Source: an uncultured Shimia sp.
GTDB taxonomy: Bacteria > Pseudomonadota > Alphaproteobacteria > Rhodobacterales > Rhodobacteraceae
NCBI RefSeq assembly: GCF_913054185.1
Contig: NZ_CAJXIV010000021.1
Coordinates: 1 to 45,234 of the forward strand
DNA length: 45,234 bases
Direction: 5' to 3'
In this document: in pieces, positions 18,106 through 36,146 of the stretch
How positions within the stretch are numbered: position 1 is the first letter of the stretch
Layout: each line of letters opens with the position of its first letter
Program-made: the position numbers and the translations under genes
Notes under the pieces: model-generated
What the model was told of the DNA's origin: nothing
Databases searched by the model: none
The model's input: the letters and a program-made list of their open reading frames with translations, nothing else

Positions 18106-18133
18106 GGGGCCAAAGGTTAATGCCTTTGGCCCC
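18106..18133. terminator. Strong hairpin after the thiolase gene
   Basis: An 11-bp perfect stem (GGGGCCAAAGG and CCTTTGGCCCC) with a six-base loop TTAATG lies 23 bases after the thiolase stop. The 3' side has only a short T-run (ATTT). It may terminate transcription from both sides of this convergent junction. Confidence 0.65.
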
Positions 18134-18145
18134 GCCACATTTCGC

Positions 18146-18200
18146 ACAGTCGCAAAACAGCTGCAAAACAGTCGTGATACCGACGCTATACCGACGTGCC
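18146..18200. repeat. 11-bp tandem array, five units (consensus ACMGWCGYNAW)
   Basis: Five consecutive 11-base units are in exact phase: ACAGTCGCAAA, ACAGCTGCAAA, ACAGTCGTGAT, ACCGACGCTAT, ACCGACGTGCC. The array lies between the thiolase terminator and the pbpC stop codon, so it is 3' to both genes. The same unit occurs, in the opposite orientation, four times at 36103-36146. An 11-base period is about one helical turn. Function unknown. Confidence 0.75.
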
Positions 18201-18209
18201 AAATCTTGG

Positions 18210-20249
18210 TTAATCCACCCAGAACGTGACCCGATCTGATGCGCCTTTGGCGTCAATCACCGTCACAGTTGCACTGCCTTTTCCGGTCATCGGCACCACC
18301 ATTTCCCGCATCCGACTTTGCCGCACAACCGGCGCCCCATTGGCCAAAACGGTGAAAGGCAAAGCACCGTTTTTGACCTTTAGAATGACCTCGCTGTTAC
18401 CCCCTTCCAAGGTCGCTCCATCCGGGGGAAACGCCACCGCGAGAGCATCGTCCGGTTTCTCAAACAAAGCATTGCGGCCCCGAAATTTCCGAAGTGGTTC
18501 AGGCAGTTGGCCGGTGCTGACAATCAATGTCTCCGGCGGCGGTGGCCCCAAGGGAGTCAGCTCCGGCGCAACGCGCTGAAACACCTCAAACAACACCGGC
18601 GCGGCCACCTCAGCACCAAATGCGCCGGGCACCGGCGTCCCATCCGGGCGACCAATCCACACCCCGGCCACATGCTGTCCGTCAAAACCAATCGCCCAGG
18701 TATCGCGATGCCCATAAGACGTCCCGGTTTTATAGGCCATCCCATTGCGCGACGCCCCATTTGGGGGCGCAATCCCGGACAGGATATCCCCCAAATGCCA
18801 CGCCGCCGTACGGCTGATAACCCGTTGTCTCGGATCAGATTTTTCGCCAAACTGCCAACGTAAATTTTGCGCCAACCCGCCTTGTGGGATGACGGCATAA
18901 AGCTGCACCAACTCTTCAAGTGAAAGCCCAACCCCGCCCAGCGCAACCGCCAACCCAGCCACCCCTCCGGGCACCTCAGGCGCTGTTCCCGCCTTGCGCA
19001 TCGCCGCCATCAAATTGGCCGGGCCAATCTCATCCGTCAGCAAAACAACCGGAAGGTTCAACGACTGCGCCAAAGCCTCCCGCACCCGCAATTCACCGCG
19101 AAACCGCCCGTCAAAGTTCTGCGGCGCATAAGTGCCAAATCGTACTGGCGTGTCGCTGATGAGCGTCTCCGGATGCACAAGCCCTTGATCAAAAGAAAGC
19201 CCGTACACCAATGGCTTAAGCGTGGACCCCGGCGAGCGCTTGGCCAGCGTCATGTCTACAAATCCCTGCCGGTGATCGCCGCTCGAAAACCCAGCTGACC
19301 CCACAGACGCCAAGATCTCCCCGCTGTGATGATCTGCCACCACTATCGCGATCGACACGCGATCCTCCAACCCACGCAAGGCTTTTGCGGCAAGCCCTTC
19401 CAGCGACAATTGCAGCTCCCGAGACAAGGTGACCTGATGCACCCCCGCTTCCGGTCGCTCAGCCACCACCCGATCCGCCATATGCGGCGCGATTGTTGGG
19501 AACTTCCGCCTTCGATTTGGAACCGGCGTCATCAACGCGGCAGAGGCAGCCCCTTCAGACAAACCCCCTGCAACAACAGCACGTTGCAGAACCCGTTCGC
19601 GCGCCTCTGTTGCCTCGCTGGAATGCCGATCGGGCCGCCGGCCATTGGGACTTTGCGGTAAGGCGACTAGGAGCGCAGACTGGGCTGGTGTCAACCGAAG
19701 CGGCTCTTTCCCAAACCACGCCAAAGTCGCCGCGCGCACCCCTTCCAAGTTTCCCCCAAACGGCGCATGTGACAGGTATAGCTCGAGAATTTTCTCTTTG
19801 CTCAGCTTCCGTTCCAACGCCAATGCCAAACGCACTTGCCGCAACTTACCTTCCCAAGCCCCAGTGCCGGAGTCCTCCAACAGCCGCGCGACCTGCATCG
19901 TCAACGTTGATCCACCGGAAACCACTTCACCATTCAAAATGGCTTGACTAACAGCACGCATCACGGCCCAAGGATCGACCCCGGTATGAGACCAAAACCG
20001 TCGATCCTCGTAGGCAACCAACATATCAATATAGCCGGGATCTACGGCGTCCAACTGACTGCCCATGCGCCAAAGCCCATCATCAACAGTATAGGCCCGC
20101 AGTAGTTTCCCATCCCGATCAACCACTTGCACCGACGTGTCCGTGAGCAGGCTGGGTAATTTGGTGTCCGCAACCCATTGGTCCACACTATCCCGCACTG
20201 CAGCTGCCAAAAGCAGCGCAGCAACAAGGACAAAGGGCGCAAACCGCAT
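18210..20249 (-). CDS. pbpC: Penicillin-binding protein 1C
   Basis: The 679-residue bifunctional peptidoglycan synthase has an N-terminal signal anchor, a GT51 glycosyltransferase domain (catalytic Glu81 in VAYEDRRFWSHTG, then GGSTLTMQVARLL), and a transpeptidase domain with Ser342-x-x-Lys345 (SPGSTLKPLVYG), Ser396-Leu-Asn398 and Lys507-Thr-Gly. The last ~90 residues form the PBP1C-specific C-terminal beta domain. All key residues are intact. It starts one base after the stop of the alpha-2-macroglobulin gene, so the two are cotranscribed. The pairing is well known in bacteria: A2M is thought to trap proteases that enter the periplasm while PBP1C repairs the wall. Confidence 0.95.
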   Translation of the reverse strand: MRFAPFVLVAALLLAAAVRDSVDQWVADTKLPSLLTDTSVQVVDRDGKLLRAYTVDDGLWRMGSQLDAVDPGYIDMLVAYEDRRFWSHTGVDPWAVMRAVSQAILNGEVVSGGSTLTMQVARLLEDSGTGAWEGKLRQVRLALALERKLSKEKILELYLSHAPFGGNLEGVRAATLAWFGKEPLRLTPAQSALLVALPQSPNGRRPDRHSSEATEARERVLQRAVVAGGLSEGAASAALMTPVPNRRRKFPTIAPHMADRVVAERPEAGVHQVTLSRELQLSLEGLAAKALRGLEDRVSIAIVVADHHSGEILASVGSAGFSSGDHRQGFVDMTLAKRSPGSTLKPLVYGLSFDQGLVHPETLISDTPVRFGTYAPQNFDGRFRGELRVREALAQSLNLPVVLLTDEIGPANLMAAMRKAGTAPEVPGGVAGLAVALGGVGLSLEELVQLYAVIPQGGLAQNLRWQFGEKSDPRQRVISRTAAWHLGDILSGIAPPNGASRNGMAYKTGTSYGHRDTWAIGFDGQHVAGVWIGRPDGTPVPGAFGAEVAAPVLFEVFQRVAPELTPLGPPPPETLIVSTGQLPEPLRKFRGRNALFEKPDDALAVAFPPDGATLEGGNSEVILKVKNGALPFTVLANGAPVVRQSRMREMVVPMTGKGSATVTVIDAKGASDRVTFWVD

Positions 20250-35882: not shown

Positions 35883-35892
35883 CGCGAAACAA

Positions 35893-36069
35893 ATTGAAGG
35901 GAGGTGCCCATTGTCTAGAGAAGCTATGGAGAACGAGGTCGGAACAGTTTGGGGGGAGCGCAGCTGAGGCAGCCCTTGGCTGACGTAAAGTCCGAATTGG
36001 TGTGATCCTAACCGATGCACCTCCAATCATCTCGAAGGGCTGCCTCCAACGCGGGAGGCGGCCCTTTTT
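35893..36069 (+). ncRNA. Candidate structured noncoding RNA or attenuating leader
   Basis: This stretch has no credible gene. GGAGGTGC (35900-35907) can pair exactly with GCACCTCC (36017-36024). GAGGCAGCCCTT (35966-35977) can pair exactly with AAGGGCTGCCTC (36035-36046). The latter is also the left arm of the terminator at 36035-36069, so the two structures are mutually exclusive, the layout of an attenuator or riboswitch. It could be a free small RNA ending at the terminator, or a leader for arfB. I find no match to 6S, SRP, cobalamin, TPP, FMN or SAM families by eye. Confidence 0.35.
36035..36069 (+). terminator. Rho-independent terminator before arfB
   Basis: A 13-bp stem including GGGCTGCCTCC and GGAGGCGGCCC (one G-T pair) with a six-base loop AACGCG is followed by TTTTT. 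The best-formed terminator in the window. It would end transcripts from yhhQ or the putative RNA. Confidence 0.85.
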
Positions 36070-36102
36070 GTTGCCGCGTTAACCCCTCAAAGTCACCCAA
36101 AA

Positions 36103-36146
36103 ACCACGTCGGTATCACGTCAGTATTACGACTGTATTGCGGAGGT
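36103..36146. repeat. 11-bp tandem array, four units, overlapping the upstream ribosome-binding site of arfB
   Basis: Units in exact phase are ACCACGTCGGT, ATCACGTCAGT, ATTACGACTGT and ATTGCGGAGGT. Read on the minus strand they fit ACNGWCGYNAT, the same unit as the array at 18146-18200. The fourth unit is divergent and contains GGAGGT (36141-36146), a Shine-Dalgarno sequence four bases before ATG 36151. The array lies between the terminator and the arfB gene, where its promoter should be. Confidence 0.75.

Follow-up and report, generated by a model that had tools for sequence, protein, structure and literature searches.

A polar, helically phased four-unit array dispersed between genes along Shimia chromosomes

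Two arrays of 11-bp units and their copies in the genome

The DNA analysed (the window, 45,234 nt) is contig 21 of a 4.04-Mb genome assembly of an uncultured Shimia sp. in 176 contigs. A thiolase gene (PF00108, PF02803) and pbpC (PF00912, PF00905, PF06832) converge on an array of 11-bp units, referred to below as site A. A second array, site B, is located upstream of arfB, which codes for an RF-1 domain (PF00472). The features of the two sites, including the matches of a sequence-only model of the element named R1, are the following:

18106-18133: palindrome GGGGCCAAAGG/CCTTTGGCCCC, 3′ of the thiolase gene
18115..18121, plus strand: left companion GGTTAAT of site A, in the loop of that palindrome; it matches the left TTAA peak described below
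18146..18197, plus strand: site A array, in the gap between the thiolase gene and pbpC; the 11-base step is exact in the sequence
18146-18156 (extra fifth unit), 18157-18167, 18168-18178, 18179-18189 and 18190-18197, plus strand: units of site A
18167-18210: R1 match at site A, 39.4 bits, E 8.9e-10
18208..18214, plus strand: right companion GGTTAAT of site A; its TTAA starts 12 bases past the array and it overlaps the pbpC stop codon
36078..36084, minus strand: companion GGTTAAC of site B; its TTAA starts 23 bases past the array end, that is, two helical turns
36106..36146, minus strand: array of site B, flanked by an sRNA-like region and arfB
36136-36146 (ACCTCCGCAAT), 36125-36135 (ACAGTCGTAAT), 36114-36124 (ACTGACGTGAT) and 36106-36113 (ACCGACGT), read on the minus strand: units of site B
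site B: R1 match, 66.2 bits, E 3.8e-18

The exact 11-base period that had been proposed for the array next to pbpC was found there and also in the second array, at 36106-36146 of the minus strand. The consensus of the original prediction, five units fitting ACMGWCGYNAW, held in part: three of the five units of site A match it exactly (those starting at 18146, 18168 and 18179), whereas the unit at 18157-18167, ACAGCTGCAAA, departs from it at two positions, and the array closes with ACCGACGT, after which GCC follows. Site A is atypical in having a fifth unit and in carrying ACAGCTGCAAA in place of ACCTCCGCAAA, a form that G007, out of six close relatives compared, also has. A pattern of two in-phase units (ATACNGWCGTNATACNGWCGT, at most three mismatches) was detected four times in the window, versus 0.02 times expected from 100 shuffles. 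In-phase runs are thus far commoner than in shuffled sequence, and they are not confined to these two loci, since about 76 sites exist in the genome.

The palindrome 3′ of the thiolase gene (GGGGCCAAAGG-TTAATG-CCTTTGGCCCC, at 18106-18133) has no T run and contains a GTTAAT-type hexamer inside its loop; versions with GTTAAC are present in close relatives. The RNA-like region upstream of arfB (35888-36072, plus strand) contains a hairpin resembling an intrinsic terminator that ends near 36070, and has a weak match to the Rfam CC2171 sRNA (26.5 bits, the gathering threshold being 75). Two parts of this region, TGCACCTCC and CTCGAAGGGC, recur before arfB in several of the Shimia genomes compared.

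A two-unit in-phase pattern matched the genome 129 times, versus 15 for a reversed control pattern. The ungapped alignment of 26 copies revealed an ordered four-unit element, GCACCTCCGCAAA-ACAGTCGCGAT-ACAGACGTNAT-ACCGACGT, with AT-rich flanks. R1 gave at least 81 matches in the genome at E values of up to 1; since R1 scores the best 116–150 candidates of each genome, all R1 counts are lower bounds. A matrix scan of the fetched loci returned 77 rows, including some weak copies (scores 23–38); these are probably 76 copies, given that L252 and L256 are the same 49 bases at contig ends and are probably one. The 11-bp register is exact, and four units are present in nearly all the aligned copies, both from this genome and from other genera. 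In 71 copies (the 77 minus six weak ones, which were left out of unit counts), invariant columns are interspersed with freely variable ones. The core of the element showed no palindrome and no strong RNA fold (z −0.30 and −1.14 relative to shuffles), and Rfam gave no match at gathering within the window. The AT tracts seemed complementary, as terminal inverted repeats would be, but the pairing of flanks of the same copy was no better than that of shuffled pairs (p 0.32), and the idea was discarded.

Placement, retention and spread

None of the 77 copies lies inside a gene as called with a simple gene caller. For the 72 copies with both neighbours called, convergent gaps contain 28, tandem gaps 40 (23 ++ and 17 −−, reading in the direction of the element) and divergent gaps four. 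Control gaps of at least 45 bp, taken from 145 kb of the same genome, sum to 1356 bp between convergent genes, 9005 bp between tandem genes and 5118 bp between divergent ones; divergent gaps therefore contain 33% of control gap bases, versus 4/72 copies. The comparison of copy counts with gap lengths indicates that, in this genome, the copies favour gene ends and avoid promoters. Most of them lie within 100 bp past a stop codon.

Outside Shimia, the placement is less clean. Among 47 copies from other genera, with ORFs called by a Shimia-trained caller, 21 were ++, seven −−, four convergent, two divergent, four at edges and nine in ORFs. Twelve of the 21 ++ copies stop 15–27 bp ahead of a called start (e.g. 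L089, L095, L102, L107, L111); there, the leader transcript may include the element, with a possible role in the 5′-UTR. When ORFs were called with the codon table of each genome, the 15 best copies of G307 comprised seven ++, four −−, three convergent and one in an ORF, and the 15 best of G094 six ++, two −−, two convergent, one divergent, one at an edge and three in ORFs.

At the 3′ end of pbpC, 16 of 22 Shimia genomes (PbpC identities of 61–90%) have an element with a matrix score of at least 14 no more than 22 bp past the stop codon. For five of them, the 1.5 kb that follow yielded no thiolase gene, indicating that the element goes with pbpC even if the neighbour differs. Possible remnants were seen in G003 and G002 and none in four genomes; the element is absent from this site in G005, G009 and G013. 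Upstream of arfB, a matrix score of at least 13.5 was obtained in 16 of 23 Shimia genomes, four more (G004, G008, G018 and G013) had visibly diverged arrays, and the element was absent in G002, G005 and G009. In G016, arfB and pbpC are adjacent and have one element in common, counted at both sites. Pairwise identity among seven close genomes was 0.88 (pbpC) and 0.87 (arfB) within the element, versus 0.43–0.80 in the flanks, aligned ungapped.

R1 found 18–96 matches (lower bounds) in 20 of the other 23 genomes of the genus and none in G005, G009 and G013, which are likely to represent natural losses of the element. In 16 genomes belonging to other families it gave no match. When named genomes were scanned with an exact pattern, at least 113 stretches were obtained, of which the 80 listed belong to Shimia, unplaced Rhodobacteraceae and a Pseudopelagicola MAG, several coming from one genome; this set includes UNRJ01 contigs and is not independent of G010. 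Of 113 named loci, 78 had flanks like those of a copy of the present genome (77 in the same orientation, one inverted) and 35 did not; for the first 80, the figures were 60 in the same orientation, one inverted and 19 without a match. Across genera, flanks resembling some copy of this genome were found for 12 of 44 copies, two of which had both flanks similar and in the same orientation.

In other genera the element mostly consists of four units (three in a few cases) of near-identical ACCGACGYNAT. A general pattern was detected in 23 of the 295 family genomes, representing 22 of 294 genera, with up to 229 matches per genome; for seven of these genomes the number was one or two. Its reversed control matched in one family genome only. 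The element is absent from most of the sampled genera of the family. The 229 matches correspond to G320, 2.5 times the next highest value (91, in G307) among the 295 genomes. Four of 385 genomes drawn from the class matched, three of them among the five members of the family; outside the family, the single match among 380 class genomes is due to an unrelated AGCGACGCAAT repeat. Plasmid records gave no match with two query forms, the BLAST low-complexity filter being on, and viral contigs gave one exact match (L441) whose flanks look, by inspection, like ordinary bacterial genes. The prediction of a dispersed, conserved, helically phased element 3′ of genes was therefore borne out in this genome and at orthologous sites, and its dispersal and phasing in other genera as well.

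Orientation, spacing and companion sites

With the element itself excluded, the flanks are C-rich in the direction of the element at 68 of the 77 copies of this genome: 18/23 in ++ gaps, 17/17 in −− gaps, 27/28 between convergent genes, 4/4 between divergent genes and 2/5 at contig edges. The 27 of 28 found between convergent genes imply that gene direction cannot explain the orientation. C-rich flanks were also seen at 101 of the 113 named loci (70 of the first 80). GC skew sampled every 80–100 kb along the two largest contigs of G018 shows clear arms, and 43 of 49 copies are on the C-rich strand by the nearest skew sample (41 of 49 if one 10-kb sample of near-zero skew is assigned to its arm). 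For G010, the sampled skew agrees with the strand of 62 of 82 copies, one of the 83 copies (C12) having been dropped as it lacked a skew sample. Reversed copies number 6/49 and 20/82, respectively. The element changes strand within about 65 kb of parS, near the origin as placed by parS and GC skew, and in G018 also close to the terminus, where the skew switches; it is the ACCGACGT end that faces the origin. The orientation tracks the replication arm rather than transcription. Canonical KOPS, GGGNAGGG, is strongly polar on the G-rich strand in both genomes (46:1 in G018 and 29:4 in G010, in samples with an absolute skew of at least 0.04).

In two one-contig genomes of other genera, the agreement with the nearest skew sample was 46/77 (G307, p 0.055) and 17/26 (G094, p 0.08); these p-values, as all others, assume independent copies, and relatives share sites. 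For G307, the 78 matches became 77 because two neighbours near 1427 kb were taken as one. With arms set afterwards from KOPS polarity, a post hoc choice, the values were 49/77 (p 0.011) and 19/26 (p 0.014). The polarity in G307 was strongest near the terminus, with 25/34 copies within 700 kb and 16/27 and 8/16 farther out, again a post hoc observation. Local flanks were C-rich in 14 (G307) and 15 (G094) of the 15 best copies of each genome, and 36 of the 47 copies taken from a range of other genera had such flanks too. Polarity is therefore strong in Shimia (this genome and two more) and, in other genera, clear locally and weak relative to the coarse arms.

Copies are distributed over both whole arms (49 on contigs C1–C4 of G018, 83 on those of G010), with mean gaps of about 70 kb in G018 and 48 kb in G010. 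Gaps were more even than random in G010 (CV 0.67 versus 0.92, p 0.0018), G018 (CV 0.60 versus 1.00, 0/5000 simulations) and G307 (CV 0.66 versus 0.98, 0/5000 simulations). Spacing was not significantly even in G094 (CV 0.82 versus 0.95, p 0.23).

The intergenic DNA around the copies is rich in GTTAA[CT]/[AG]TTAAC hexamers, present at 39 of the 77 copies and at 4.7 per kb, versus 0.20–1.63 per kb in small controls from the same genome and 0.34–0.61 per kb in larger controls from element-free gaps of three Shimia genomes. To the right of the array, a TTAA (mostly GTTAAY) lies at about 12, 23 or 34 bp in 42 of the 77 copies. The class at 11–13 bp occurs alone in 15 copies, that at 22–25 alone in 22 and that at 32–36 alone in four; one copy has the first two and 35 have none, so that 41 of the 42 copies use only one phased distance. 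The right-side distances have a period near 11 (Rayleigh R 0.80, n = 47), values of 10.5–11.5 fitting about equally well. Among the 113 named loci, some of them orthologous to copies in this genome, TTAA occurred 28, 10 and 8 times at 11–13, 22–25 and 33–36 bp, and 15 times elsewhere within 60 bases. On the left side, a broader TTAA peak is located 25–30 bases ahead of the array. No phased TTAA was evident in G307 and G094 (five and two TTAA, respectively, in 15 copies each). Jumps of the TTAA site by whole turns, always onto the same face, suggest that the bound proteins are in contact.

The units are not equivalent. Among the 71 copies, the fourth base of unit 0 is usually T (52/71), and the third base is A in unit 1 (71/71) and C in unit 3 (65/71). 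The deviating unit of the 15 best G307 copies is instead the last one, with ACAGAC in nine. Unit preferences that differ by position and by lineage suggest that separate modules recognize the units. Many of the 15 best G307 copies (e.g. L448, L450, L452) also have a motif like CGTTCGGGTCC directly before the array.

Possible function and relation to known elements

For an array that combines exact phasing with intergenic 3′-end placement in Shimia, arm polarity, even spacing and long retention at orthologous sites, the explanation that we favour, with modest confidence, is a putative protein-binding site that acts at the DNA level, is polar and multi-module, and serves as a chromosome-organisation or segregation mark. 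The arm polarity and even tiling (a copy every ∼45–70 kb) point to origin-to-terminus traffic and make such a mark the most likely role. The site would be about 45 bp of double-stranded DNA (about 100 bp with flanks) contacted by four DNA-binding modules in head-to-tail order, each taking one helical turn, so that all would share a face of the helix. Shimia would add a second site, a TTAA within GTTAAY, spaced from the array by whole turns and thus on the same face. The mark would be polar and fixed relative to the replication arm, its ACCGACGT end toward the origin, and its reader would travel from origin to terminus; candidates are the replisome, a translocase or a condensin that loads at parS. 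We infer that the modules have separate specificities and form one ordered assembly, a plain homo-oligomer offering no obvious reason for the differences between units. Among the functions first suggested for the array, the phasing and arm polarity suit a multimeric protein-binding site and a nucleoid or segregation site, but an RNA feature is disfavoured, as there is no clear fold, no Rfam match and no tie between orientation and transcription. A bolder version of the favoured reading is speculative and, in our judgement, unlikely: a CTCF-like multi-module protein would sit at polar, even sites every 45–70 kb and check or position condensin, or another motor, moving from parS/origin to terminus, joined in Shimia by a GTTAAY-bound partner, with lineages having changed module specificities and all sites together.

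The main rival is a REP/MITE-like dispersed repeat that would insert in a strand-specific, replication-coupled manner, be tolerated between genes and be passively inherited. REP sequences are intergenic, rare between divergent genes and present in tens to hundreds of copies, and the element likewise avoids genes and divergent gaps; lagging-strand insertion would produce arm polarity, and most sites of other genera are not common to Shimia, as the few copies with any flank similarity (12/44) indicate. Against this, the element has no palindrome or strong fold, and the complementarity of its flanks is at the level of chance (p 0.32). Column-specific conservation and the whole-turn spacing of the companion suggest selection, unit preferences vary by position between lineages, and the element has persisted at pbpC across 61–90% protein identity, also with a different neighbour gene. 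We consider such a repeat rather unlikely.

The asymmetry and arm polarity of the site, and the stronger polarity near the terminus of G307 (25/34 within 700 kb, post hoc), would also suit a polar, Tus/Ter-like barrier that lets origin-to-terminus forks pass and obstructs reversed forks or head-on transcription. This is improbable: the 49–83 copies are spread over both whole arms rather than forming a terminus trap, and the 12–24% of them that are reversed are incompatible with a strong barrier. A signal acting in RNA (terminator, processing or 5′-UTR) or an operator for a response regulator of the OmpR/PhoB type would account for the location of most copies of this genome within 100 bp past a stop codon, for the 12 of 21 ++ copies of other genera that lie 15–27 bp before a called start and, in the case of PhoB-type operators, for 11-bp direct repeats. 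Both tandem orientations occur, however (23 and 17), while arm polarity is 68 to 9, the core folds no better than shuffles (z −0.30, −1.14), Rfam is blank, and divergent promoter gaps are avoided in this genome (4/72), the opposite of what operators do; we regard such a signal as quite improbable. Even spacing, intergenic placement and genome-wide differences in consensus between lineages recall a DNA-uptake signal with lineage dialects, spread through biased uptake. Known uptake sequences, with over a thousand copies, are far more numerous than the roughly 80 copies per genome found here, and uptake gives no reason for arm polarity, which makes this the least credible of the alternatives, with a very small chance of being correct.

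A protein that could read the favoured chromosome-organisation mark was looked for. By eye, no clear four-fold DNA-binding repeat was seen in 2113 ORFs, a part of any genome; 56 of them have internal repeats, of the RTX, TPR, pentapeptide and similar types. The RCCGAC core resembles the plant DRE motif. An AP2-domain (PF00847) binder, which this core had suggested, was discarded, with none of 41 genomes over the cut-off; weak AP2 matches (E 0.03–0.09) occurred in five genomes, none of which has the element by R1 or by the general pattern. The likely losses in G005, G009 and G013 should be useful for finding a binding protein and, together with the absence from most sampled genera and the lineage-specific unit changes, would make such a protein and its code directly testable.

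Several known systems resemble the element in part. Like KOPS and architecture imparting sequences, it is dispersed, non-palindromic and oriented by arm, but those are 8-mers, and the element is a 4 × 11-bp array that is about 5–11 times rarer. Identity with KOPS was rejected: the four 11-bp units are of other sequence, and the 8-mer GGGNAGGG is separately present and polar. FtsK probably has its signal in the latter, which makes it a less likely reader of the element. As REP/BIME sequences, the element is, in this genome, extragenic, mostly 3′ of genes and present in tens to hundreds of copies; it differs in being a direct-repeat array without a strong fold rather than palindromic hairpins, and in that many of its sites are common to several species. 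It has in common with Tus-Ter an asymmetric site oriented by arm, but it is not centred on the terminus, has four units and shows many reversed copies. PhoB/OmpR boxes and the ParR/parC system of plasmid R1 consist of head-to-tail 11-bp repeats that present one helical face, and the exact 11-bp head-to-tail direct repeats of the element are alike; the former are promoter operators, whereas the element avoids divergent gaps in this genome, and parC is a single plasmid centromere, whereas the element is dispersed in the chromosome, usually with four position-specific units. No description of it was found in searches of open-licence papers. Since KOPS, REP/BIME, Tus-Ter, OmpR/PhoB operators, AP2 sites and structured RNAs each fail a defining feature, the element appears to be new at the sequence level, its function aside. 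To our knowledge, no bacterial element has been known to be polar, evenly spaced, multi-unit and arm-following, the known polar marks being 8-mers; if a protein reads these sites, they would constitute a new layer of bacterial chromosome organisation.
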